Shown: piece after piece, positions 43,517 through 61,704 of the stretch | Layout: each line of letters begins with the position of its first letter | Numbering within the stretch: position 1 is the first letter of the stretch | NCBI GenBank assembly: GCA_945873105.1 | Contig: CAMCBW010000024.1 | Span: 1-64,000, forward strand | DNA: 64,000 nucleotides | Direction: 5' to 3' | Source: Tangfeifania diversioriginum | GTDB taxonomy: Bacteria > Bacteroidota > Bacteroidia > Bacteroidales > Prolixibacteraceae | The notes under the pieces: model-generated | Databases searched by the model: none | Seen by the model: only the letters and a program-made list of their open reading frames with translations | What the model was told of the DNA's origin: nothing | Program-made: the position numbers and the translations under genes

Positions 43517-45508
43517 TCATTCCTTAAACTTCTCCCTGTACTCTGATGAAGTAACCTTGAACTCGGTGCGTCTGTTGTACTGGTGACATATTTCGCGTTC
43601 CTCCTCCTTTTTCAAAGCCTCAATGAACTGGCAGGAAAGAACTTGACCTTTTTGAAGAAATGAGCTAATCTTTACCATTTTGACATCAACTGTTTTTGGT
43701 GCTTTCTCCCCATAACCTTTGGCCGTCAACCTACCCTGCTGAATCCCCCTGGAAATCAGGTAATCCACCACAGATTGCGCCCGCTTCTGGGATAAGACAA
43801 TGTTGTCCTGATCATTGCCCCTGCAATCGGTATGTGCCATCAACTCAATGGCTACTGTAGGATTTTCTTTCAGGAGGTAAACCAGGGTATCCAGGGATGC
43901 AATGGACTGTGGCAGGAGGTCCCACTTTCCAAGTTCATAAAAGATGTTATCCACAGTAATTGGCTGGTCAACAGGAGTTAATTCCATTCTCACCGTAAAG
44001 GCCTTGCCCTGTTCCAAACCGATGGTTGAGATCGATGCCTTGGCATTGAGAAAGCCTTTTTTAAAAGCTGTGACCAGGTATTCAACACCAGACTTTAACT
44101 GAAACCGAAAGGAGGCATTTTCGGCTTTCATTCTAAGCATGGTACCATCCGTACCGATCAGCCTGACAGAGGCCCCTTCAATCTGCTCTGCTGTCTCCTT
44201 GTTGTATAGTTTCCCTTCTACCCCAAAATTTTTGGGTGGAAGTAAGAAGGAGTAGATATCATCTCCCTTGCTTCCTTCGCGAAAGCTTGAAAATAGACCT
44301 TTCTCTTCCCCAGGATAAAAAAATATGGCAAAATCATCCCCCTCAGAATTGATGGGAACTCCCATGTTGTCAATGGTCCATTTTTTATCACCGTCCGGTT
44401 TGGCTCTGAAAATATCCAAACCACCTAATCCAACATGGGAATCGGAGGAGAAATATAGCTCACCATTGTCGCGAATAAAGGGAAACATCTCATTTCCGGC
44501 AGTATTGATTTCCGGCCCAAGATTCACTGGCTCACTCCACTGGTTCTCTCCGCTCTTTTTTGCCATCCAGATATCATTTCCACCAAATCCACCTCGTCTG
44601 TTGGATGCGAAATACAAGGTCTCGCTATCCATTGAAAGAGAAGGATGGGCAGTTAGCAAGCTATCCTTTCCGATGTTAACGACCGCTGCTTTGCTCCAGG
44701 TTCCGCTGAGTAGTGTTGATTCATATACAGCAACTTTCGCATTCACACCCTTTTCGGACATGGTGCGGGTAAAAAAAATGGTATTGCCACTTTTATCGAA
44801 GCAGGATGCACCCTCCTCATCAATGGTATTAACCATCATTGTCTCGTCCAATCGCTTGGGTAAATCCCACTTCTTCTTCTCCGCATTGAATACCGAACGG
44901 TAGATATCGGCATTGTACTCACCTGTCACTTGATTCTTCTTTTTCCCCGTGGCATCTTCCCTGGACGATGTAAAGACCAGCTCAGTTTCAATTAAGCCGG
45001 GATAGGTACCGGCATAGTCTGACCAGCGGGAATTGATCTCTTTCAGGTTCTCTATTTTGTAGAATGATATTTTTTTAAGCAATTCCTGAGCAGTCTGACA
45101 GGAGCTAATACCATTGGTTGCACGCTCATCTTTTGGATTGACAGCAAGAAATTTTTGGTAATTTTTAATTGCCTCATCATATTTTGCGTTGGCTCTCAGT
45201 ACTTCTGCATACCGAAGAAGAATACTATGGTCGGAGGGATCCTTGTAAATTGCACTCTTGAAATAACTCTCAGCCTGGCGGTATTGACCCAGCTTGTAAA
45301 ATGCCTCGGCAATCTTCAATTGGATCGCAGCCTTCTCTTCGCGTCCCTTTGTTTTGACATAAACTTTGCGATAAGCTGCGATGCTCTTGAAATATTCTCC
45401 ATTGTCGAAGGTGGTGGCGGCCATCCGTGTTTGTCGGGACACAGTACATCCATCGCTTAGCACAAGCAATAGAACCAGGGTCAAAATATTTCCAAAACTG
45501 CGGAGCAT
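43517..45508 (-). CDS. OmpA-family lipoprotein with TPR, beta-propeller and CRD domains (PorE-like)
   Basis: A 663-residue lipoprotein (signal ends LSDGC at residue 21). In order: TPR-type repeats (about 25-150, YRQAESYFKSAIYKDPSDHS), a PD40-like propeller (about 160-430, with repeated FASNRRGGFGGNDIW-type strands), a carboxypeptidase-regulatory-like beta sandwich (about 430-520), and a C-terminal OmpA domain with MAHTDCRGNDQDNIVLSQKR that binds peptidoglycan. This architecture is that of PorE, a Type 9 secretion component tethering the machine to the cell wall; paralogues of other function exist. No other T9SS genes are in the window. Divergent from the cyclophilin gene. Confidence 0.78.
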   Translation of the reverse strand: MLRSFGNILTLVLLLVLSDGCTVSRQTRMAATTFDNGEYFKSIAAYRKVYVKTKGREEKAAIQLKIAEAFYKLGQYRQAESYFKSAIYKDPSDHSILLRYAEVLRANAKYDEAIKNYQKFLAVNPKDERATNGISSCQTAQELLKKISFYKIENLKEINSRWSDYAGTYPGLIETELVFTSSREDATGKKKNQVTGEYNADIYRSVFNAEKKKWDLPKRLDETMMVNTIDEEGASCFDKSGNTIFFTRTMSEKGVNAKVAVYESTLLSGTWSKAAVVNIGKDSLLTAHPSLSMDSETLYFASNRRGGFGGNDIWMAKKSGENQWSEPVNLGPEINTAGNEMFPFIRDNGELYFSSDSHVGLGGLDIFRAKPDGDKKWTIDNMGVPINSEGDDFAIFFYPGEEKGLFSSFREGSKGDDIYSFLLPPKNFGVEGKLYNKETAEQIEGASVRLIGTDGTMLRMKAENASFRFQLKSGVEYLVTAFKKGFLNAKASISTIGLEQGKAFTVRMELTPVDQPITVDNIFYELGKWDLLPQSIASLDTLVYLLKENPTVAIELMAHTDCRGNDQDNIVLSQKRAQSVVDYLISRGIQQGRLTAKGYGEKAPKTVDVKMVKISSFLQKGQVLSCQFIEALKKEEEREICHQYNRRTEFKVTSSEYREKFKE

Positions 45509-52638: not shown

Positions 52639-52677
52639 CCAAAACCTGAAAGGTCTTTGAGACCTTTCAGGTTTTGG
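52639..52677. repeat. Perfect 18-bp palindrome overlapping the archaemetzincin stop
   Basis: CCAAAACCTGAAAGGTCT and its exact complement are separated by TTG. The palindrome covers the last codons and the TGA of the archaemetzincin gene and can serve as a terminator in the minus direction. Confidence 0.75.
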
Positions 52678-53200
52678 TGAGCTGCTCCCTGCACTTGTGG
52701 CAAAGCTGGTGATTCTTTTGATCAATGTCTTCAACATAAGTACTTGATCTCATAACACAAGTTGGATCAAAACAATGTATGAGGCCAAAAGTGTGCCCCA
52801 ATTCATGAATGACCTCCTTTCGAAAGCGGTTGATCAATACCTTCTCGTCTTTGAAGATACCGTATCGTTCGTTTCTGAGTCTGTAGATGGAGGCGATTCC
52901 GGCTTTGCCATTCAGGTATGCCTGACCGAATATATAGGTTAAAATTGGAATGAAGAGGTCTACATTGAAGAGTCCAAGCGTCTTGTTCTGTTCTTTAGCA
53001 TAGGAGTTGGTGATCTCCTTCAACAGTCTGTTCCCATCGTACTGCCTTCTGGAAGGGTCATAGAAAAGGCTGAGATCCAGATGCCCCTCTTTGGTTTTCA
53101 CCGGAAGCTGAAACTCCTGCTCAACATCCTTGACGATCTTTTCAAGAAGGCTCTTCTCGAAATACCCAAATGAAATTAGTTTAATTTTTTCCAGATGCAT
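52667..53200 (-). CDS. Archaemetzincin-type zinc metalloprotease
   Basis: A 177-residue protein with the archaemetzincin motif EVIHELGHTFGLIHC (residues about 129-143: HExxHxxxGxxHC) followed by the structural cysteine pattern CVMRSS and CHKCREQ that binds a second zinc. The N-terminal half (VDLFIPILTYIFGQAYLNG) matches the family. Archaemetzincins are cytoplasmic peptidases of unknown substrate. The gene follows the sigma-54 regulator by 56 bases on the same strand, so it might be cotranscribed with the two-component system. Confidence 0.88.
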   Translation of the reverse strand: MHLEKIKLISFGYFEKSLLEKIVKDVEQEFQLPVKTKEGHLDLSLFYDPSRRQYDGNRLLKEITNSYAKEQNKTLGLFNVDLFIPILTYIFGQAYLNGKAGIASIYRLRNERYGIFKDEKVLINRFRKEVIHELGHTFGLIHCFDPTCVMRSSTYVEDIDQKNHQLCHKCREQLTKT

Positions 53201-53256: not shown

Positions 53257-54600
53257 TTATTGTTTGGGTTGAGTTAAACCATATTTCTTAATTTTGTTGT
53301 AGAGGGTAACCCTGTCAAGTTTCAGTGCCTTGGCTGAAACTGTGATATTCCAGCCATACTTATTAAGAATAGCGAGAATGTGCTTCTTCCCCAGATCATC
53401 CAGACTCTCAAATGAGGTACTCATCCTCTCTTTTACCATTGGAAGGTCTTTTAGCATGATCTTCTTTCCATTCCCAACCACAATGGCACGTTCAACCATA
53501 TTTTCAAGTTCCCTTATATTTCCGGGATAGGCATACTCTTCCATTCGTTTCAGCGCAGCAGGCTCAATCGGGAGGATGGGCCTGTTCATGGAGTTGCAGC
53601 ATTTCTTGATAAAGTAATCAATCAGCAGGGGAATATCTTCTATTCTGTTCCTGAGAGGTGGCACATTGATATTCACCACATTGAGCCGATAATAGAGATC
53701 TTCCCGGAACAATCCCTTGTCAACCATACTCTTCAAATCCCTGTTTGTGGCACAAAGCACCCTGAAATCGGAACTAATCTCCTTGTTCCCTCCTACCCTT
53801 ACAAAACTCTTCGTTTCAAGCACGCGAAGCAATTCGACCTGCATCTTTGGAGATATAGTAGCGATTTCGTCCAGGAAAATGGTCCCACTGTCTGCCATTT
53901 CAAACCTTCCCTTACGGTTGTATACAGCCCCTGTAAAGGCTCCCTTCTCGTGGCCAAACAGTTCACTCTCCAACAGACTCTCGGTCAGGGCTCCGCAATG
54001 CACACTCACCATAGGGAAGAATTTGCGAGACGAATTTGCATGTATTGCTTTGGCTACGAGCTCTTTGCCGGTTCCGCTTTCGCCTGTTATGATCACGGAG
54101 GCATTGGATTGGGCAACACTCTCAATTTGTTTGAAAACTTCCTGCATGGCCTCACTTTGGCCTATCATATCTTCAACATTTTCAAGGAGGGTTACTTTGT
54201 CCTTAAGAATTTCATTCTCCTCGGTAAGGGTAATCTGTTTGGAAGCATTTCTGATCAGATGCGATAGATCGTCAGGATCGAAAGGTTTGGTTACATAATC
54301 GAAAGCCCCGTCTTTTAAGGCCTGTACTGCCGTATCCACCGTAGCAAAAGCTGTCATAATGATGACAATGGCATCACTCTTCAAGGATTTGATCCGCTTT
54401 AACATTTCAAGACCATCCATTCCAGGCATTTTGATGTCGGCCAATATAATATGAAAGCTTTCAGATTGAAGCATCGAAAGAGCTTTTTTGGCATCTTCCG
54501 CACATTCCACGTGATAACCGTCTTCTATAAACCAGTTGTACAACGAGTCCCTCACAGATTCTTCGTCATCAACAATCAAAATTGAAATTTTTTTAGCCAT
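53257..54600 (-). CDS. Sigma-54-dependent response regulator, NtrC/AtoC family
   Basis: A 447-residue regulator: receiver domain with phospho-acceptor Asp55 in ILADIKMPGMDG, a central AAA+ domain with VIITGESGTGKE, the sigma-54 contact loop KGAFTGAVY, GTIFLDEI and RVLETKSFVRVGG, then a Fis-type helix-turn-helix (VSAKALKLDRVTLYNKIKK). ATG 54600 is used; a TTG lies nine bases upstream. It starts 10 bases after the sensor kinase stop and is its evident partner. An intact GAFTGA loop means it can activate sigma-54 promoters; a candidate target lies upstream of 61245. Confidence 0.95.
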   Translation of the reverse strand: MAKKISILIVDDEESVRDSLYNWFIEDGYHVECAEDAKKALSMLQSESFHIILADIKMPGMDGLEMLKRIKSLKSDAIVIIMTAFATVDTAVQALKDGAFDYVTKPFDPDDLSHLIRNASKQITLTEENEILKDKVTLLENVEDMIGQSEAMQEVFKQIESVAQSNASVIITGESGTGKELVAKAIHANSSRKFFPMVSVHCGALTESLLESELFGHEKGAFTGAVYNRKGRFEMADSGTIFLDEIATISPKMQVELLRVLETKSFVRVGGNKEISSDFRVLCATNRDLKSMVDKGLFREDLYYRLNVVNINVPPLRNRIEDIPLLIDYFIKKCCNSMNRPILPIEPAALKRMEEYAYPGNIRELENMVERAIVVGNGKKIMLKDLPMVKERMSTSFESLDDLGKKHILAILNKYGWNITVSAKALKLDRVTLYNKIKKYGLTQPKQ

Positions 54601-54610
54601 TTTATTCAAG

Positions 54611-56281
54611 TTAATTCTTAATCAGTGGTAAAGTGATCGACAAGGTGGTACCCTTTCCCCGCTCTGATCTGACATCGGCCTTCCCCTTGTGATTCTGGAC
54701 AATGCCATGTACAATTGCCAAACCAAGTCCAATCCCGCTGGTTCCCTCCTTGGTAGAAAAGAAGGGTTCGAAGATATGTGACAAATCTTCAGGATTGATT
54801 CCTACCCCATTGTCGGTTATTTCAATGCAGATATGATCCGGATCCGGATTGAAAGTTCTGAAGATTACCTCCCCATTCTCGCCTACAGCTTCTGAAGCAT
54901 TTACCAGGATACCAATACATGCCTGTTTGAGCTGGTTGGGGCTTCCATAAACAAGGTCACTTCTTGCCGAAAAATCGGCAATAAAATGTACATTGGCAAT
55001 CTTCATGGGATGAGACATCAGTTCAAAAGTTTCATGCAGCACTTCATGCAAGTGCTTTTGTTCAAATCCATCCTGATTCTTCCTGGAAAAATCCAGCAGC
55101 CCTTTGACAATATCCCCACATCTTTTGGTCTCGTTTTCTATCAGTTTCAGATGTTTGAGCATCGACTCCTTCTTTATCGGATCAATTTCTTGGTTACCAA
55201 GCTGTTTGTACACCAATTTGGCATAGATGAGTATACCTGAGAGTGGATTGTTGATTTCATGCGCTACCGACAAGGACAATTTACCCAGGGAGGCTATTCT
55301 TTCAACATTGATAAGTTCATTCTGTGCTTGTCCCAACTCCTCTGTCTTCTTTTGCACCTTGTATTCAAGTTGTTGAGACCAGTTTTGCAGTTCATTGGTG
55401 GCGCTCTGCAAATTGTCCAACATCTCATTGAAAGCCAGCGAAACCATTCTCATGTCGGATAACTGGTGTGGCTTTACCTCAAGCCTGGTACTTCGGTCTC
55501 CATTTGCCACATCCAGACTTGCCTTGATAATGTCATTCAACGGATTCTTAATTTTCTTTCTGGTAAAAAATATTAAAAAGATGATTAAAAAGGCTGTTAA
55601 AAGGGCTGCCAACAAAAAGTAGTCGGTGGTGGATTTCTCCAGAGCAGCATCGAGGCCACCCAGGGGCATTTTTATGATCAGCGACCCCAATACCTTATCC
55701 CGTTCATTGTGTGCATGGCATGAACTGGTATAACAGGAGCGGTCATTGAGTATGGGTGATTTTATGATAAGATGCCGGATATTGTTGTTGTTGTGGTTCA
55801 TGCTACATTCACTGTCGATTCCGATGATCTTGTATGATTTCTCCGTAGCAGAAAACATGGTAGGGAAATTCTTGTGGCAGGAGATACAATCCGGATCGCT
55901 GTGGTTGGTTGTATCATTGGAAATAGAAGAGTAAACCAGGTTGTTCTCGATATCATACATGTTGACATCGTCTATCCCAGACATGGTATTGATAATATCC
56001 AATGTTCCCTGCAGCGCGGTACGGTCATTTTCAAGCATGGAGCGATACAACGCTCCCTGTACCAAGAAACCAATGTTGTTCCCGTTTTCACTGATGACAG
56101 ACTTCATGTAGCTCTCATTGACGGATCTGAAGATGATCCCAAAAGAGAGAAAAAGAAAAAATGAGGAAATCGTAATGATTAAGACAACCCTACCGTAAAT
56201 GGATGACCTGAAATTGACATAGCTTTTCACCAATGGCGATCCGACATTGTTTACCTCAGATATTTTTTTAATCCAACTCAT
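54611..56281 (-). CDS. Sensor histidine kinase with periplasmic c-type heme motifs
   Basis: A 556-residue kinase. A membrane helix (about 31-52) precedes a periplasmic domain of about 165 residues with CISCH at 132-136 and CYTSSCH (Cys183 to His189), i.e. CX2CH and CX4CH heme-attachment-like motifs. A second helix (about 220-240), HAMP (about 242-295) and coiled coil follow. The kinase core has VAHEINNPLSG with His341, then LVNASEAVGENG, ITDNGVGINPEDL and SGIGLGLAIVHGIV. It probably senses redox state or a heme ligand. The heme count and the unusual CX4CH motif need proof. It is coupled to the sigma-54 regulator downstream. The gap 56282-56585 upstream carries the terminator of the preceding operon and no clear promoter. 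Confidence 0.85.
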   Translation of the reverse strand: MSWIKKISEVNNVGSPLVKSYVNFRSSIYGRVVLIITISSFFLFLSFGIIFRSVNESYMKSVISENGNNIGFLVQGALYRSMLENDRTALQGTLDIINTMSGIDDVNMYDIENNLVYSSISNDTTNHSDPDCISCHKNFPTMFSATEKSYKIIGIDSECSMNHNNNNIRHLIIKSPILNDRSCYTSSCHAHNERDKVLGSLIIKMPLGGLDAALEKSTTDYFLLAALLTAFLIIFLIFFTRKKIKNPLNDIIKASLDVANGDRSTRLEVKPHQLSDMRMVSLAFNEMLDNLQSATNELQNWSQQLEYKVQKKTEELGQAQNELINVERIASLGKLSLSVAHEINNPLSGILIYAKLVYKQLGNQEIDPIKKESMLKHLKLIENETKRCGDIVKGLLDFSRKNQDGFEQKHLHEVLHETFELMSHPMKIANVHFIADFSARSDLVYGSPNQLKQACIGILVNASEAVGENGEVIFRTFNPDPDHICIEITDNGVGINPEDLSHIFEPFFSTKEGTSGIGLGLAIVHGIVQNHKGKADVRSERGKGTTLSITLPLIKN

Positions 56282-56499: not shown

Positions 56500-56532
56500 A
56501 ATGAAGCGATATGTCAAACACACCGCTTCATT
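56500..56532 (-). terminator. Hairpin terminator ending the redox operon
   Basis: On the minus strand AATGAAGCG pairs with CGCTTCATT over a 15-base loop, followed by TTTTTT. It lies 54 bases after the stop of the second GcvH-like gene and separates this operon from the sensor kinase gene. Confidence 0.8.
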
Positions 56533-56585: not shown

Positions 56586-57359
56586 TCAATCATACTCCAA
56601 TTTATACGGACCTCTCTCCAAACCTCTGAAATGAGGATATTTGGATTTTGTTCCCAAGAAATTACGTTGGAAATCTTGCCATACCTCCTCCGGCAGGTGG
56701 GCCAACGGTTGATCAATAAGTTCCCCCCCATCCTGGAGAACGACCTGAGAAGGATCTTCCGTATATCTCTCGACTGAAGCAGCCAGAAAATCCTTGAATC
56801 GCTCAAGTTCCCTGGAAGACCAATTGGAGGCCTCTTCTGCCAGAAAAAATGAGTTGGTCTCCACTACCCAACGGGTAGGTTTGATTTTGTAGATCCAACC
56901 TTTGACATATGGATCCTCATTGAACAATCCCGGATCCTCCATCAACAAGGGATTCACAGCGATGATTTCACCAGAAATTGGTGAGACAATGCTTAGACGC
57001 TTTCCTTCATGGGTGACATCGACCAGCACATCCTCCTTGCTGAGTGTCTCCCCCGGATTTCTAAGTTTTGTAAACTTCAACTCCCCGGTGAGGTGCAGCA
57101 ACAGGTCGTCCATTCCAACTTTGGCAATACCCTTGCTATCAAGATGTGCCCAGGTATGATTCTTGTTGAAGAAAATTCCTTGTGGAACCCTTAAGGCATT
57201 GGCTGTTAGAATACCAAGCCTCTTTCTAAGTTGTTTAGTTTCCTTAACTTGCCTGTTAAGGATCATCCAGAAAGGAACCAAAATAGCAAAGAATGCAATA
57301 ATAGCCACATATTCGATCCCTTTTGTTTCGAAGATGTTGTGGTAAGTAAATCCGTCCAT
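56586..57359 (-). CDS. Membrane-anchored GcvH-like domain protein
   Basis: A 257-residue protein with one N-terminal membrane helix (about 16-35) and a GcvH-like biotinyl/lipoyl-type domain (about 58-162): IFFNKNHTWAHLD, KVGMDDLLLHLTGEL, VSPISGEIIAVN and YVKGWIYKIKP align well with glycine cleavage protein H. At the lipoyl-lysine position there is Gly119, with a Lys one residue later (EGKRLSIV), so normal lipoylation is doubtful. Residues 165-257 are an extra C-terminal region with VVLQDGGEL (206-214) and VWQDFQ, shared with the fusion protein at 59548-61245. The domain should face the cytoplasm. Function unknown; encoded last in the NrfD/HybA operon, 52 bases after nrfD. Confidence 0.82.
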   Translation of the reverse strand: MDGFTYHNIFETKGIEYVAIIAFFAILVPFWMILNRQVKETKQLRKRLGILTANALRVPQGIFFNKNHTWAHLDSKGIAKVGMDDLLLHLTGELKFTKLRNPGETLSKEDVLVDVTHEGKRLSIVSPISGEIIAVNPLLMEDPGLFNEDPYVKGWIYKIKPTRWVVETNSFFLAEEASNWSSRELERFKDFLAASVERYTEDPSQVVLQDGGELIDQPLAHLPEEVWQDFQRNFLGTKSKYPHFRGLERGPYKLEYD

Positions 57360-57411
57360 AATAAAATATTTAAAGGTTAAAAATTATGCTGTAAATATCC
57401 ATTCAACTAAC

Positions 57412-58641
57412 TTAATGGTCCTCTTTGGCCCAGGCAGGTGATTCTCTCAATACTGGCATCCGGTTTACAATCCACCTGAATATCAATATCTCCGTAAAAA
57501 TTACCGTCAGGGTAACCACAATTTCCATCCAGGAGGGATAATAATGAGTCGGTGCATCCCATTTGAAGCTGATCACCGTAACATTTAACCTGTTCAAAAT
57601 GACCCCCAGCATGGTTACGATGGCCGCCAAACGAATCAGGAAAACATTCCGGGTTCGGTAACTGTAAAGGTATAAAAACATCGGAAGCAGGACAAAACCC
57701 AACATTTCAAGCAGATACCAGTATCCCCATTTGGTATTTAATAGTGTCCAGTTTTTCTGATGGATAAATACCAGGAGTTGCAAAAAGAAATAGGCAAACA
57801 GTGCACCTGCACATATCTTAGCCAAACCTTGCAAAATACCTGTCTGTGCCTTGTGATTTTTTTCACTGATCTGATCGAAAAAGACTTTGTGACTGATGGA
57901 CCCCTCAAAAATCACCATGGATAATCCAGCAAATACACTGGAAACCAGAAACATGATTGGAATGAATTCGGAGTACCACAATGGATGAATTTTGTCTTTG
58001 GCCATCAGGAAAAGTGCTCCCAAGCCTGATTGATGGAGTGTCGAAAGAGTAATTCCAAAAATTACAGCGCCTATGGTCAGACCTGAAAGTATTTTTCTGG
58101 CTCTTCTGGCTCCCAACCATTCTGCAATGGCTGGTGAGAATTCAATCAGCTCTGCAAGCATGTAAAGCATAAAATGCCAGGCAACCAAAAACAAGACAGA
58201 ACTCGTTCCGAAACTGTTGCCAATAATAGGATTGATAACGTTCCAGGGCCTTCCTAGATCAAGTAAAAGAGCTCCTGCATAAAAGAGGTAGGCAAGAAAA
58301 CCATTCAATACAGTAACCCTGACAATCGAATGGTATTTATCCATCTTCAGGATATAGACCATGAAAGTAAGCACATAGGCACCCCCCGCAAAGGCAACAC
58401 CGGTTACAACATCAAAGCCGATCCAAAGGCCCCATGGGGTATCCTGGTTCAGATTGGTGATGGAGCCTATTCCATTCATAAAACGCAAAACAATCAATAC
58501 TATTCCAACCACAATGACTGGAAAGGCGATGATGTTGAAGGGCGTCAATATTTTGCCCTTGGGCTTAAGTTCACTTAAAACAAATCGAACAATGGATTGT
58601 CCATCATTGTCTTTGGCAATAGGTTGGACTTGATTATTCAT
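57412..58641 (-). CDS. NrfD/HybB-family quinone-reactive membrane subunit
   Basis: A 409-residue polytopic protein with about ten membrane helices. It begins after an N-terminal cytoplasmic segment; TPWGLWIGFDVVTGVAFAGG is the NrfD first-helix pattern and TLHQSGLGALFLMA with HPLWYSEFIPIMFL is close to HybB of hydrogenase-2-type complexes. Such subunits exchange electrons with (mena)quinone and can move protons. ATG 58641 overlaps the end of the hybA-like gene by eight bases (ATGAATAA), showing translational coupling. No hydrogenase or molybdoenzyme large subunit is encoded nearby. Confidence 0.9.
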   Translation of the reverse strand: MNNQVQPIAKDNDGQSIVRFVLSELKPKGKILTPFNIIAFPVIVVGIVLIVLRFMNGIGSITNLNQDTPWGLWIGFDVVTGVAFAGGAYVLTFMVYILKMDKYHSIVRVTVLNGFLAYLFYAGALLLDLGRPWNVINPIIGNSFGTSSVLFLVAWHFMLYMLAELIEFSPAIAEWLGARRARKILSGLTIGAVIFGITLSTLHQSGLGALFLMAKDKIHPLWYSEFIPIMFLVSSVFAGLSMVIFEGSISHKVFFDQISEKNHKAQTGILQGLAKICAGALFAYFFLQLLVFIHQKNWTLLNTKWGYWYLLEMLGFVLLPMFLYLYSYRTRNVFLIRLAAIVTMLGVILNRLNVTVISFKWDAPTHYYPSWMEIVVTLTVIFTEILIFRWIVNRMPVLRESPAWAKEDH

Positions 58642-59503
58642 TTTCTTCTGAGTTAGTGTTTTTATTTCGTTTGGTTGCTTCATGAATACCAAGCAAAAGT
58701 GGTGGTACCAGTACAAAAACGGAAGGTACGGTGTATAGAAATCCCTTTGACAATTCCGGATATGAAGAGTTTTGCATCTTGGTGTTAAACCCTACTTCTT
58801 TGAATGGAGCAGGGGACAAATAGAGCCAACCAGTACCCCCTGCAACCTCTTCGCCCCAAATTTGATTTTCATAGTCCTTTGGGTTTTCAAAAATGCGCTT
58901 TCTTGCTTCTTCGATCAATTCCCTTCTGGTACCAAAGGTTAATGCATCTCCAGGACATGCTTCCGCGCAAGCAGGAATTTTCCCCTCCTTAATCCTATCA
59001 TAGCACATGTCACATTTTTCAATTTTCGGATTGGCACTGTAGTACTCAAACTTGGGAACATCAAATGGACATGAAACCATACAATACCTGCAACCCATGC
59101 ATTTGTCACCTCTCCAGACCACCGGTCCTTCCTTTGTCTTGTACATCGCCATCGTCAGGCAAGCAGCGGCACAAGCAGGCTCATTGCAGTGCATACATTG
59201 ATTCTTTACAAATACTTCCCCTTTGGATGTATTGTAATTGTTGATAGCGGTTCGCTGGTTTTCGCTGGTCTTTCTGATTACACCTACTTCTGGCTTCACT
59301 TTCTTGGGTTCAGGCAGGCTATGTGCTTTCGCGCAGACTCTTTCACACGCCAAACAACCGATACATCTTGTTGCATCGTAAAGTACGCCCTGAAACTCCA
59401 CCGTTTGCTCTTCTGAATTAGCAGCTCCGAAACTGTTTCCCACTGCCAGTGTAGCCCCTGCCACACACATGGTCTTGAAAAAATTGCGGCGGTTAAAACT
59501 CAT
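58634..59503 (-). CDS. Tat-exported four-cluster ferredoxin subunit, HybA-like
   Basis: A 289-residue iron-sulfur protein. SFNRRNFFKTMCVAG is a twin-arginine signal, so it is folded before export. Four cysteine groups are present: CIGCLACERVC, CMHCNEPACAAAC, CMGCRYCMVSC, and CDMCYDR with CAEACPG, giving four [4Fe-4S] clusters. A C-terminal membrane helix (about 255-275) anchors it to the membrane beside the NrfD subunit. It should carry electrons between a periplasmic donor or acceptor and the quinone pool. The gene overlaps nrfD and follows the fusion gene by 44 bases. Confidence 0.93.
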   Translation of the reverse strand: MSFNRRNFFKTMCVAGATLAVGNSFGAANSEEQTVEFQGVLYDATRCIGCLACERVCAKAHSLPEPKKVKPEVGVIRKTSENQRTAINNYNTSKGEVFVKNQCMHCNEPACAAACLTMAMYKTKEGPVVWRGDKCMGCRYCMVSCPFDVPKFEYYSANPKIEKCDMCYDRIKEGKIPACAEACPGDALTFGTRRELIEEARKRIFENPKDYENQIWGEEVAGGTGWLYLSPAPFKEVGFNTKMQNSSYPELSKGFLYTVPSVFVLVPPLLLGIHEATKRNKNTNSEENE

Positions 59504-59547
59504 AAAATTAAGTTTAATATATTAATAGTTAATAAGTTAGTTTGAAA

Positions 59548-61245
59548 TTACCTGGAAGTATCAATAAACTGGGTTTGAAAATCTTCCCATACTTTTGGTT
59601 CCAAACTTGCTAAAACATTGTCGGATAGTTCTCCGCCATCCTGAAGAACAACGTGCGAATAAGCCATTTCATTCGTTTTAACCGAGTTTGTAATGAAATC
59701 TTTAAGTCTGGTAAATTCGTCTCTCAACCACTCCCTGTATGTTTCTCCCATCAACATAAACTGAGTTTCTCTTAGCCAGTTGGTAGGTTCAATCTGATAG
59801 ACCCAACCCTTGAAGAATGGAGAGGTATTTAGAAGAGAGGAGTCTCTGTTAAGTAATTCATTTTGAGCCATAATCTTTCCTGAGATTGGGGCATAAAGGT
59901 TGAGTTGTTTTCCATCTTGAATGATAGACATGATTGTTTCTCCCTTTCTTACCTTCTCACCTGTTTCTTTCATTTTAATTTTGGTCAGTTTTCCGGTGAT
60001 GTGCTGCAGGAAGTCGTCAATTCCAATCCTTACATTTCCATCCTGTTCCATAAAAGCCCAGGTGTGGGTTTTGTCAAAATAGAGCCCATTGGGAACGTTC
60101 ACCGATTTCTCAATTAAGCGCGGAGCAATTTCGATCTGCTGGTTAGGTTGGGTTGATTCGACTCTTTTCCTGCTGTAAAAGAAAACTGCAATGAACAGGC
60201 CGATAAAGGCTGTAATGGTCAATAAAATGGGCCAGGACTGCGGAGCTTCTGCAACATCGACCAGTGCCTTGTCGTTCGCTTCTATGCCCGTCAATGAAGC
60301 CAGACTGCTTTGTTTCTCCATAGATGTCAGCTCGCAAAAACCATTTGGATTCATATATTGCTGACCACCTGCTACCAGCCATGTTAGAAATGCCAATTCA
60401 TGCGCTGCCTCAGGCTTAACAGGCGCTACCGCATAAACATTTAAAGTCAGTGATTTTGGATATTTTCCAACCCAAACACCGTGTACAAATTCCTCCAGAT
60501 TGGCAAAGATGTCCTCGAAATTATCCAATCTTCCATTGCCATTTTTATCAATTGGAAGTATGGCTACTGCAACCGGAACTGTAGAAGTATTGGGGGTCTG
60601 CAGATCACTTAATCGACAGAAACCAATGGCGAATTGATCAGATTTGACCGCTTCAATTACAGCGGCAGGTGATTCAAAAACCTGATAGTCTTCCTCTTTC
60701 AGCTTTGTTTGAGCAAATTTCTCTACAGCACCCAAAATACTGGCCTGACTGGACATATACAAACGAACCTGGTTAGGTGCTCCATTTTCCAACAATGCGG
60801 ACCATAATTTTTTGGAGGGATCTTCAAGCATCCTGGAAAATTCAGCGGCTGAAATTCCTCTCTTTTGTAACTGCTGATACATCGGATTCCCCGGGTTGAT
60901 AATTGGAACGATTACCTCTCGTGCCACAGCAATTCGCCAGTTTGTTGAATTGGTAAGAACAGGTGAATCTTCGTTCGAAATCAAAGTAAGATTTCCCAGG
61001 CTACTGGCAGTTTCCTCCAATACCCCTATTTTCTCAAATTTCATAGCAGGGTGTTGTAAAGCGAAATCCTTTATCAAATCCTGAGTGAGGGCGAGGATTT
61101 CTGGTGAACTGGAAATTCTTAAGCTGCTGGTTTCTGACAGAATTCCAGCTGGTTCATTTTGATTGTCGGACCTGCTTTCGGCGAAGGTTATTTGATGAAA
61201 AATCAAAATTGACAATCCGGCTAAGAGAAGTGACATGTTTTTCAT
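59548..61245 (-). CDS. Fusion of a PstS-like periplasmic binding domain and a cytoplasmic GcvH-like domain
   Basis: A 565-residue protein, first gene of the operon. It has a signal peptide (1-22), a periplasmic binding domain of phosphate-binding (PstS-like) type (about 40-320) including an EF-hand-like loop DKNGNGRLDNFE (233-244), a membrane helix (about 339-357), and then a GcvH-like domain (about 380-488: LYFDKTHTWAFM, RIGIDDFLQHITGKL, YAPISGKIMAQN, FKGWVYQIEP). The lipoyl-lysine position is Gly445 with Lys446 next to it, as in the paralogue at 56586. The C-terminus carries the same HVVLQDGGEL (531-540) and VWEDFQ signature. The layout suggests that a periplasmic ligand is signalled to, or tethered next to, a cytoplasmic carrier-type domain. 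No homologous activity is known to me. Confidence 0.8.
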   Translation of the reverse strand: MKNMSLLLAGLSILIFHQITFAESRSDNQNEPAGILSETSSLRISSSPEILALTQDLIKDFALQHPAMKFEKIGVLEETASSLGNLTLISNEDSPVLTNSTNWRIAVAREVIVPIINPGNPMYQQLQKRGISAAEFSRMLEDPSKKLWSALLENGAPNQVRLYMSSQASILGAVEKFAQTKLKEEDYQVFESPAAVIEAVKSDQFAIGFCRLSDLQTPNTSTVPVAVAILPIDKNGNGRLDNFEDIFANLEEFVHGVWVGKYPKSLTLNVYAVAPVKPEAAHELAFLTWLVAGGQQYMNPNGFCELTSMEKQSSLASLTGIEANDKALVDVAEAPQSWPILLTITAFIGLFIAVFFYSRKRVESTQPNQQIEIAPRLIEKSVNVPNGLYFDKTHTWAFMEQDGNVRIGIDDFLQHITGKLTKIKMKETGEKVRKGETIMSIIQDGKQLNLYAPISGKIMAQNELLNRDSSLLNTSPFFKGWVYQIEPTNWLRETQFMLMGETYREWLRDEFTRLKDFITNSVKTNEMAYSHVVLQDGGELSDNVLASLEPKVWEDFQTQFIDTSR

Positions 61246-61315: not shown

Positions 61316-61331
61316 TTCAACAACCATGCCA
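61316..61331 (-). promoter_or_regulatory. Candidate sigma-54 (-24/-12) promoter of the redox operon
   Basis: The minus strand reads TGGCATGGTTGTTGAA; the sigma-54 consensus is TGGCAC-N5-TTGCW. The GG is correctly placed and the -12 TTG present, but the C of GC is A. It lies 71 bases before the ATG at 61245 and close to genes for a sigma-54 activator. Inference, not proven. Confidence 0.5.
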
Positions 61332-61406
61332 TGAATTATCTGCATACATAAACATCTGATTATATGATCATTAAAAATATATTGTAAAAATTCTAATCAG
61401 GCGTAA

Positions 61407-61423
61407 TGTTGCAATTCTCAACA
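61407..61423. promoter_or_regulatory. Candidate activator site 1 (TGTTGCA...CAACA)
   Basis: TGTTGCAATTCTCAACA is an imperfect palindrome (TGTTG-N7-CAACA), 76 bases upstream of the putative -24 element. It resembles site 2 at 61494 in 12 of 17 positions. NtrC-type regulators bind such repeats upstream of sigma-54 promoters. Confidence 0.35.
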
Positions 61424-61493
61424 CTCAAATCATGAAAATGGTGTATATGATTGATATACAGATATATAAATACATTGTTGAATTTATATACAG

Positions 61494-61510
61494 TGTTGCA
61501 TAATTAAACA
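61494..61510. promoter_or_regulatory. Candidate activator site 2 (TGTTGCA...AAACA)
   Basis: TGTTGCATAATTAAACA lies 87 bases from site 1, about eight helical turns, and shares its first seven bases and its last ACA. The intervening DNA is very AT-rich, as expected for bendable enhancer regions. Confidence 0.3.
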
Positions 61511-61704
61511 CGCTATTTTTATATATTTGATTAGTAGTATCTTATACATTTATTATTTAAATTCAAGCAATGATTTATTGCCGCAAACTTGAAATAGCTC
61601 CCTTTAGGCAGACTCCCTTAATCCTCAAAACTTGTTCATGGCTAACGGTAAAATAAGCTTGCCGGAAAAATTGGGACATAAAATTCAGGTCATTCCAGCA
61701 AAAA

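Follow-up and report, generated by a model that had tools for sequence, protein, structure and literature searches.

The stretch of DNA under study, a 64-kb window of the Tangfeifania diversioriginum contig CAMCBW010000024.1 (assembly GCA_945873105.1), carries on its minus strand four co-oriented open reading frames (ORFs) that encode, in the order of transcription, a PstS-like domain joined through a transmembrane (TM) segment to a GcvH-like domain (PstS-TM-GcvH, below also PstS-GcvH), a Tat-exported four-cluster ferredoxin, an NrfD membrane subunit and a TM-anchored GcvH-like protein (GcvH2). The intergenic gaps are 44 and 52 bases, and an NrfD start at the ATG at 58641 would make its gene overlap that of the ferredoxin by 8 bases. 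ORFs, Pfam domains, the PstS fold and a family profile all bear out these four genes, which an earlier sequence-only reading of this DNA had placed correctly; their spacing, the overlap and a hairpin followed by a T-run also fit its proposal of one unit closed by a terminator. Yet the unit does not end there. On the same strand, after the hairpin, follow genes for a histidine kinase, a sigma-54 response regulator and an archaemetzincin, which had been missed together with the promoter and dyad region (Table 1). The hairpin itself is absent from our general hairpin scan, whose loop limit was 8. Hydrophobicity and the positive charges that follow it agree with the topology proposed earlier, in which a periplasmic iron-sulfur arm and a quinone-type membrane part would be combined with cytoplasmic GcvH domains.

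Table 1. Genes and control elements of the locus, listed in the direction of transcription.
Feature	Position	Strand	Description and basis
Distal enhancer-like dyad	61493..61511	-	12/14 matches to GTGTTGA-N5-TCAACAC
Middle dyad	61475..61493	-	Weaker, 10/14 matches; score reached by 7.6% of shuffled regions
Proximal enhancer-like dyad	61406..61424	-	12/14 matches
Sigma-54-type promoter	61317..61331	-	TGGCATGGTTGTTGA; GG-N10-GA, first ATG 86 nt downstream
PstS-TM-GcvH	59548..61245	-	Signal sequence, periplasmic PstS-like domain (~39-321), TM segment (~336-359), cytoplasmic GcvH domain (~382-510) without lipoyl lysine
HmcB/HybA-like ferredoxin	58634..59503	-	Tat-exported, C-tail-anchored, four [4Fe-4S]; domain and family profiles, alignment
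HmcC/HybB-like NrfD membrane subunit	57412..58641	-	Quinone-site and N-side residues mostly retained; profiles, alignment
GcvH2, TM-anchored GcvH-like protein	56586..57359	-	Lipoyl position without lysine; profile, alignment
Hairpin, then T-run	56500..56532	-	Between GcvH2 and kinase genes; loop of 11
Histidine kinase	54611..56281	-	Periplasmic sensor with c-haem-type motifs C132xxC135H136 and C183x4C188H189, HAMP, HisKA, HATPase
NtrC-type sigma-54 response regulator	53257..54609	-	Receiver, AAA+ with GAFTGA, Fis helix-turn-helix
Archaemetzincin metalloprotease	52667..53200	-	HExxHxxGxxHCx4CxM intact

The arrangement is conserved well beyond this genome. A scan of a genome collection with an NrfD alignment confirmed at least 584 relatives, the best 80 of which form our locus set. 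Counted from record titles, 41 of these come from Bacteroidota metagenome-assembled genomes (MAGs; Bacteroidales, Prolixibacteraceae, Marinilabiliales and others), and the set also draws on Acidobacteriota, Gemmatimonadota, Deltaproteobacteria, Syntrophaceae, Krumholzibacteriia, Chlorobiota, Lentisphaerae, Phycisphaerae and Neomarinimicrobiota. Across all 80 loci the ferredoxin is found in 76, GcvH in 69, the kinase sensor in 56, archaemetzincin in 49, PstS in 33 and a multihaem ORF in 15. In the 34 loci with full flanks (at least 4 kb upstream and at least 6 kb downstream), the ferredoxin directly adjoins NrfD in 33. A GcvH-like ORF lies no more than 3 kb from NrfD in 30 of them, the kinase sensor no more than 7 kb away in 30 and archaemetzincin no more than 9 kb away in 28; a PstS domain occurs in 20, and an ORF with at least four CxxCH motifs no more than 4 kb away in seven. 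Gene order is variable, still the parts stay together: the kinase block precedes PstS-GcvH in L096 and lies on the opposite strand in L134 and L144. The HybA/NrfD pair without a catalytic subunit, linked to GcvH-like proteins as the sequence-only reading had it, is a real and conserved association, and relatives retain the arrangement in the manner of an intact operon, not of a broken one.

Which parts are constant was addressed by a survey of the order, a single draw of 198 genomes searched for NrfD, the kinase sensor, archaemetzincin and PstS-GcvH. NrfD was detected in 24 genomes, the kinase sensor in 25, strong archaemetzincin in 26 (above 170 bits, a cut picked after viewing the list, which keeps 26 of the 32 genomes found at E 1e-8) and a GcvH-bearing PstS-GcvH in 27, a set that omits G301, whose match is to the PstS part only. 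Every one of the 25 kinase carriers has GcvH and every one has archaemetzincin, but only 21 have NrfD; the ferredoxin/NrfD pair is therefore a removable module of a signalling cassette. Four genomes (G300, G334, G397 and G428) hold a compact operon consisting of (PstS-)GcvH, kinase, regulator and archaemetzincin (L175-L178), with no ferredoxin, NrfD or second GcvH. One of them, G300, shares its genus with G418, a carrier of the complete seven-gene form; between the two, identity is 76% for the kinases, 82% for the regulators and 69% for the archaemetzincins. The three NrfD carriers in which no kinase was found comprise one contig that ends within the operon (L182) and two cases of a separate pair beside a molybdopterin oxidoreductase (L180, L181). 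As these sequences define it, the constant core is made up of the kinase with its two c-haem motifs, the sigma-54 regulator, the archaemetzincin and a GcvH-like membrane protein; the predicted HmcB-like ferredoxin, HmcC-like NrfD and second TM-GcvH, though found in most copies, can be lacking. We give a probability of roughly 60% to the explanation that the locus encodes a redox-signalling cassette that controls its own expression and carries a detachable module for quinol oxidation. The GcvH-like proteins are best read as signalling parts of this cassette and the electron-transfer pair as the detachable module.

Both flanking proteins match the Pfam GCV_H family (74.4 and 83.1 bits, cut-off 22.2), and their GcvH domains do not reach the equivalog cut-off of TIGR00527 (61.6 and 70.3 of 115.85 bits). 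A structural model of PstS-GcvH shows the H-protein fold (VIA Z 19.4 to 1htp, root-mean-square deviation (rmsd) 1.3 over 131 residues). Lysine occupies the lipoyl column in only seven of 206 operon domains (glycine in 97, one gap) versus ten of ten reference H-proteins. In the two domains of the window this column holds glycine and reads GK, the lysine being shifted by one place; a lysine one place past the column is found in 33/33 PstS-GcvH and 29/32 GcvH2 proteins, with arginine or other residues often found elsewhere. On sequence grounds, a lipoyl-carrier role is disfavoured, and with the lipoyl lysine missing the description of these domains as carrier-like becomes doubtful.

The company that the GcvH fold keeps points to signalling. 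With reference H-proteins counted in, the 218 GcvH ORFs from the fetched loci comprise TM-GcvH, PstS-TM-GcvH, soluble proteins with an N-terminal four-cysteine motif, receiver-GcvH and TM-receiver-GcvH forms. Fusions to a receiver account for 33 ORFs across 17 fetched loci, counts that are not those of a random sample, as a set of 40 fetched regions was mostly chosen from the best matches. The complete receivers are canonical in 32 of 32 cases, and two of the fusion proteins were confirmed with Pfam. All 17 loci have NrfD, 16 have an ORF with at least five haem motifs and 15 have the haem kinase, and only L051, where a plain-GcvH operon stands as well, has a sigma-54 regulator with a score like that of the window's. 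In most of those loci the GcvH fusions are thus candidate kinase partners. Judged from these loci the GcvH domain is likely an output, although no systematic search for other receivers in those stretches was made. Several GcvH-like proteins of other build were also seen. Soluble forms (L036:6536-7402, L041:11902-12636 and others; 22 aligned domains) begin with CxW..AG...Y.LC....Y.C..C, a spacing of metal- or cluster-type; a 745-residue protein (L121:5427-7664) has an uncharacterised N-terminal domain of about 490 residues, a TM segment and a GcvH-like end; and a protein with two GcvH-like domains (L129:11276-12532) adjoins a ferredoxin/NrfD pair.

The PstS-like half of the window protein is by itself below the Pfam cut-offs. 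Its assignment comes from the PstS-GcvH family profile, which matches PstS chains in the PDB (best 4gd5, E 4.5e-9), from PBP_like_2 matches in 20 of 33 members and from the modelled fold (VIA Z 20.3 to 4exl, rmsd 2.6 over 239 residues, and 19.7 to 4gd5). Phosphate-binding-loop patterns of PstS matched none of the 33 members, these being simple patterns uncalibrated on known PstS. Identity to the window's proteins among the 33 PstS loci is 25-46% for the PstS domain versus 65-89% for NrfD; the periplasmic domain is therefore the fast-evolving part. An EF-hand-like loop of the DxNxNGxxDxxE type lies at residues ~231-244 of the 59548..61245 product, with 31 of 33 members matching a loose pattern and 29 a stricter one, which suggests a calcium site in the periplasmic domain. 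Two further PstS-like relatives, G446:C199 and G301:C9, match only in the PstS part (residues 13-311 and 78-313).

The kinase carries both haem motifs (CxxCH and Cx4CH) in 78 of 84 ORFs, and the motifs are invariant in the 16 relatives that were aligned. The haem sensor profile PF21563 matches nine of the 16 relatives weakly and the window's kinase not at all; other Cache matches among the 16 are dCache_1 in three and sCache_4 in one. A 2026 preprint (PMC12889525) describes haem-Cache domains, fused to signalling modules, with properties like those of nitric oxide (NO) sensors. The window's kinase resembles these sCache_heme proteins in having a periplasmic sensor with a covalent c-haem motif fused to signalling modules, and differs in having two motifs, the second being Cx4CH, and in matching PF21563 only weakly in its relatives and not at all itself. 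The regulator has the features of the NtrC type, namely a receiver, a sigma-54 interaction domain with GAFTGA and a Fis-type helix-turn-helix. The archaemetzincin passes NF033823 (163.3 bits, cut-off 145); its zinc motif is intact in the window protein and shared by 60 of 64 relatives.

In the detachable pair, NrfD scores 57.6 bits in Pfam (cut-off 25.8); the ferredoxin has Fer4 dicluster domains, a twin-arginine start, 16 cysteines beyond the signal peptide and a C-terminal hydrophobic anchor. PMC8076601 ties HybB residues, S129 and D109 among them, to quinone binding and to an N-side ion path. HybB D58, D109, S129, R89, Y99, Y141, E148 and H184 are conserved or nearly so in 115 NrfD relatives; S129 and D109 correspond to S148 and D128 of the window's NrfD and are kept in 115/115 and 114/115. 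With these quinone and N-side residues retained, the pair probably carries out quinol chemistry. At the place of HybB E133 the window and 79 of the 80 loci have leucine, versus glutamate in 34 of 35 NrfD sequences from a draw across the phylum, and the equivalent of E268 is valine in the window and valine or isoleucine in 33/33 PstS loci and 32/47 other loci versus an acidic residue in 34 of those 35. Since both glutamates are replaced, coupling in the pair is perhaps altered.

A multihaem cytochrome accompanies the pair at some loci, with five or 13 haems; the 13-haem ORFs adjoin NrfD. Other contigs of the window's genome encode ORFs that contain as many as 20 CxxCH motifs, among them two neighbouring ORFs with 18 and 20 (G000:C62, L170), which are possible periplasmic electron acceptors. 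A search for multihaem proteins with PF14522 hit eight of 198 genomes at E 1e-6, too strict a threshold to inform, and gave nine matches in the window's genome at E 1e-3. GcvH is absent from three of the seven full-flank loci with a multihaem cytochrome versus one of the 27 others (Fisher 0.02), so that a shortage of GcvH at cytochrome loci is suggestive only.

Upstream of the first gene lies a predicted sigma-54-type promoter preceded by repeated palindromes. The sigma-54-like pattern TGG[CT][ACT]-N6-TTG[ACG] (GG-N10-GN) precedes PstS-GcvH in 30 of 32 loci, two loci with fewer than 120 bases upstream being omitted, versus two of 173 other ORFs of those loci (mechanical six-frame ORFs of at least 200 residues, not curated) and fewer than 1% of shuffles. 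The dyad was scored in 34 of 39 upstream regions, a promoter match being required (L087, L089, L105 and L177 have none, and L120 was also left out). TGTTG-N7-CAACA occurs in 19 of these 34 regions (mean 0 in shuffles), and GTGTTGA-N5-TCAACAC with at least 11 of 14 matches in all 34 (0.8% of shuffles). Dyads recur about 83-95, 150-165 and 171-189 bases before the promoter, with recurrent spacings close to -84/-94, -153/-164 and -172/-183, and many regions have two or three. Three of the four compact operons have promoter and dyad, the fourth (L177) having no promoter match. This arrangement fits an NtrC-type regulator that would activate its own operon.

How might such a cassette work? Its composition, its co-occurrence and its control region come directly out of the computations; what it senses, how the module is gated and which acceptor takes the electrons we infer. 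The kinase would sense the redox state, or the NO occupancy, of its haems, and the phosphorylated regulator would bind the palindromes and activate its own operon. NrfD and ferredoxin would pass menaquinol electrons to a periplasmic acceptor encoded elsewhere, which in some relatives may be a multihaem cytochrome. GcvH domains at the inner face of the membrane could serve as docking or output domains that link the phospho-signal to the membrane module, and in Bacteroidota a PstS-like periplasmic ligand sensor would also be tied to that module via GcvH. Proteolytic shut-off by the archaemetzincin is a guess. A wider claim, which we put forward as tentative, is that a GcvH fold devoid of the lipoyl lysine serves widely as an output or adaptor of bacterial signalling, found at the cytoplasmic end of receivers, periplasmic binding domains and membrane anchors, and that it gates a quinol-oxidising ferredoxin/NrfD module in response to the haem kinase. 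This explanation and its rivals overlap in part, and the probabilities attached to them are not meant to total 1.

Several observations weigh against an autoregulated signalling cassette. The explanation is computational throughout, its functions being deduced from sequences and models. As most loci come from MAGs and are mutually related, neither the counts nor the Fisher values are independent; "group" here means a set of loci and not a tested clade. The model of the kinase sensor is of low confidence, and its VIA matches cover mainly residues 343-556. The shifted lysine, invariant in the 33 PstS-GcvH proteins with a residue at that place, leaves modification there formally possible. A canonical -12 GC is rare at the promoter: the strict scan found GG-N10-GC in 7/31 and a good match in 2/31. 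The relaxed GG-N10-G[ACG] pattern was chosen after the upstream sequences had been inspected, and it precedes the first ferredoxin or GcvH gene in only 18 of 74 loci without PstS, so that a clear promoter is confined to the PstS group. Likewise, the dyad consensus was derived from the same regions that it scores, and the shuffles preserve base composition only.

A regulon beyond the operon was not found. The window's genome holds 20 exact-core dyads versus seven for the reversed pattern, and among the 16 that were scanned (15 in L184-L198, one in L174) only the operon's own pair lies outside a gene, the three non-operon sites with promoter-like neighbours all being inside ORFs. A gapped search of 26 genomes gave 57 matches versus 29 for the reversed-pattern control and recovered the operon in only nine of the 26; 48 of the matches lie away from operons, and their neighbouring genes were not inspected. 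For a circuit with no target but itself, it is unclear what output the compact four-gene form would have. The comparison within one genus is also less close than the kinases suggest, the PstS-GcvH proteins of G300 and G418 being just 40% identical, and G419 has GcvH and archaemetzincin with no match to the kinase sensor. In the latter genome an in-frame fusion joins the ferredoxin to the ATPase end of the kinase (L179:6404-7549), apparently after the internal stretch with NrfD, GcvH2 and the kinase sensor was deleted.

The rival that survives best, which we nevertheless hold to be unlikely, is close to what the sequence-only reading had proposed: a stable membrane electron-transfer complex in which GcvH-like proteins take the place of the catalytic subunit as structural or carrier subunits, the two-component genes being local regulators. 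The presence of GcvH within 3 kb in 30 of the 34 full-flank loci speaks for it, in a sample selected by NrfD, as does the GcvH gene that commonly stands directly after NrfD. Against this, GcvH is kept with kinase, regulator and archaemetzincin in the four of 25 kinase carriers that have no pair, it is fused to receivers elsewhere, and the lipoyl-column lysine is nearly always absent; we therefore do not adopt the idea that GcvH-like proteins replace the enzyme. A GcvH-like protein employed outside glycine cleavage has a precedent in LbpA of sulfur oxidation, whose lipoyl lysine, according to PMC6067878, is strictly kept, in contrast to the operon domains.

Somewhat less probable is a reversed flow of information, in which NrfD and ferredoxin relay the state of the menaquinol pool to the kinase haems, so that the pair is a sensor arm and not an output. 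A haem kinase stands near 29 of the 30 GcvH-containing full-flank loci, and no ORF of the window is multihaem (open frames of at least 80 residues with at least two CxxCH), both of which speak for this model. However, the kinase occurs without the pair in four genomes, the pair lies behind the sigma-54-type promoter and upstream of the hairpin, and at other loci a 5- or 13-haem cytochrome accompanies the pair.

Less probable again is a reduced respiratory complex of the Hmc type with its multihaem partner encoded elsewhere, to which the GcvH neighbours would be functionally unimportant. The best NCBIfam matches of the pair are indeed HmcB (312.8 bits) and HmcC (417.9 bits), but both remain below their cut-offs of 420 and 550. 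A C-tail-anchored ferredoxin beside a HybB-like protein is shared with Hmc of Desulfovibrio, a complex of sulfate respiration, and hmc, too, is linked to regulators, rrf1/rrf2, as PMC10924467 reports. The multihaem ORFs near NrfD (15 of the 80 loci, seven of the 34), the adjoining 13-haem ORFs and the large cytochromes on other contigs of the window's genome are likewise in line with it. By contrast, the window has no 16-haem HmcA, and no HmcD, E or F is among the matches listed for the nine window proteins scanned; the partners are instead GcvH-like proteins, haem kinase, sigma-54 regulator and archaemetzincin, and GcvH is among the most constant members.

Pairs of ferredoxin and NrfD without a catalytic subunit have been described before, so that this feature alone is no novelty. 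Excerpts of the respective papers report such a pair, NrfC-type ferredoxin and NrfD, in Melioribacter roseus (Mros1572/Mros1571, PMC3534657), pairs alongside multihaem cytochromes in MBNT15 bacterium SHF-111 (PMC9386147), and tail-anchored ferredoxin and HybB-like pairs with octahaem cytochromes (PMC10924467). The Melioribacter and MBNT15 pairs resemble ours in having no molybdopterin subunit and in their proposed feeding of multihaem cytochromes; they differ in that GcvH-like or receiver-GcvH neighbours go unmentioned in those excerpts. A literature search that covered few subscription journals found no description of a GcvH-NrfD or receiver-GcvH combination, and the linkage to GcvH and receiver-GcvH is the apparently undescribed part.

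That the locus is the remnant of a hydrogenase or molybdoenzyme operon after loss of its catalytic subunit, to which the HybA/HybB family resemblance and a molybdopterin-linked relative pair in two genomes of the order lend some colour, is very improbable and largely refuted, and we rejected it because uninterrupted ORFs with their functional residues are conserved over many families and several phyla and because the window's genome has no match to the [NiFe] hydrogenase large subunit PF00374 at E 1e-3. The pair shares with HybA/HybB of E. coli hydrogenase-2 the two-subunit architecture and the key HybB residues, and differs in having no adjacent HybC/HybO and in its E133-to-leucine and E268-to-valine replacements. 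Elsewhere in the window, an ORF at 43517-45508 scores 637.1 bits against the PorE family of type IX secretion proteins in NCBIfam, above the cut-off of 600.

Quinol-oxidising modules of the complex iron-sulfur molybdoenzyme (CISM) family have as a rule been reported together with one fixed catalytic subunit, and the GcvH fold has been seen as that of a lipoyl carrier. In the anaerobic bacteria considered here, a CISM module and a GcvH fold are both tied to a haem-based two-component system, in Bacteroidota as well as in several other phyla, with an enhancer-promoter arrangement that is strongly conserved in the PstS group. The finding points to a role of the GcvH fold without its key lysine in bacterial signalling that has not been recorded. 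If the wider claim made above is true, it would represent a new class of two-component output, one that acts directly on a respiratory membrane complex, and if the GcvH-like domain is a receiver-driven output, phosphorylation could control a membrane redox module without transcription. Given that natural four-gene and seven-gene forms exist in one genus, the question is testable.

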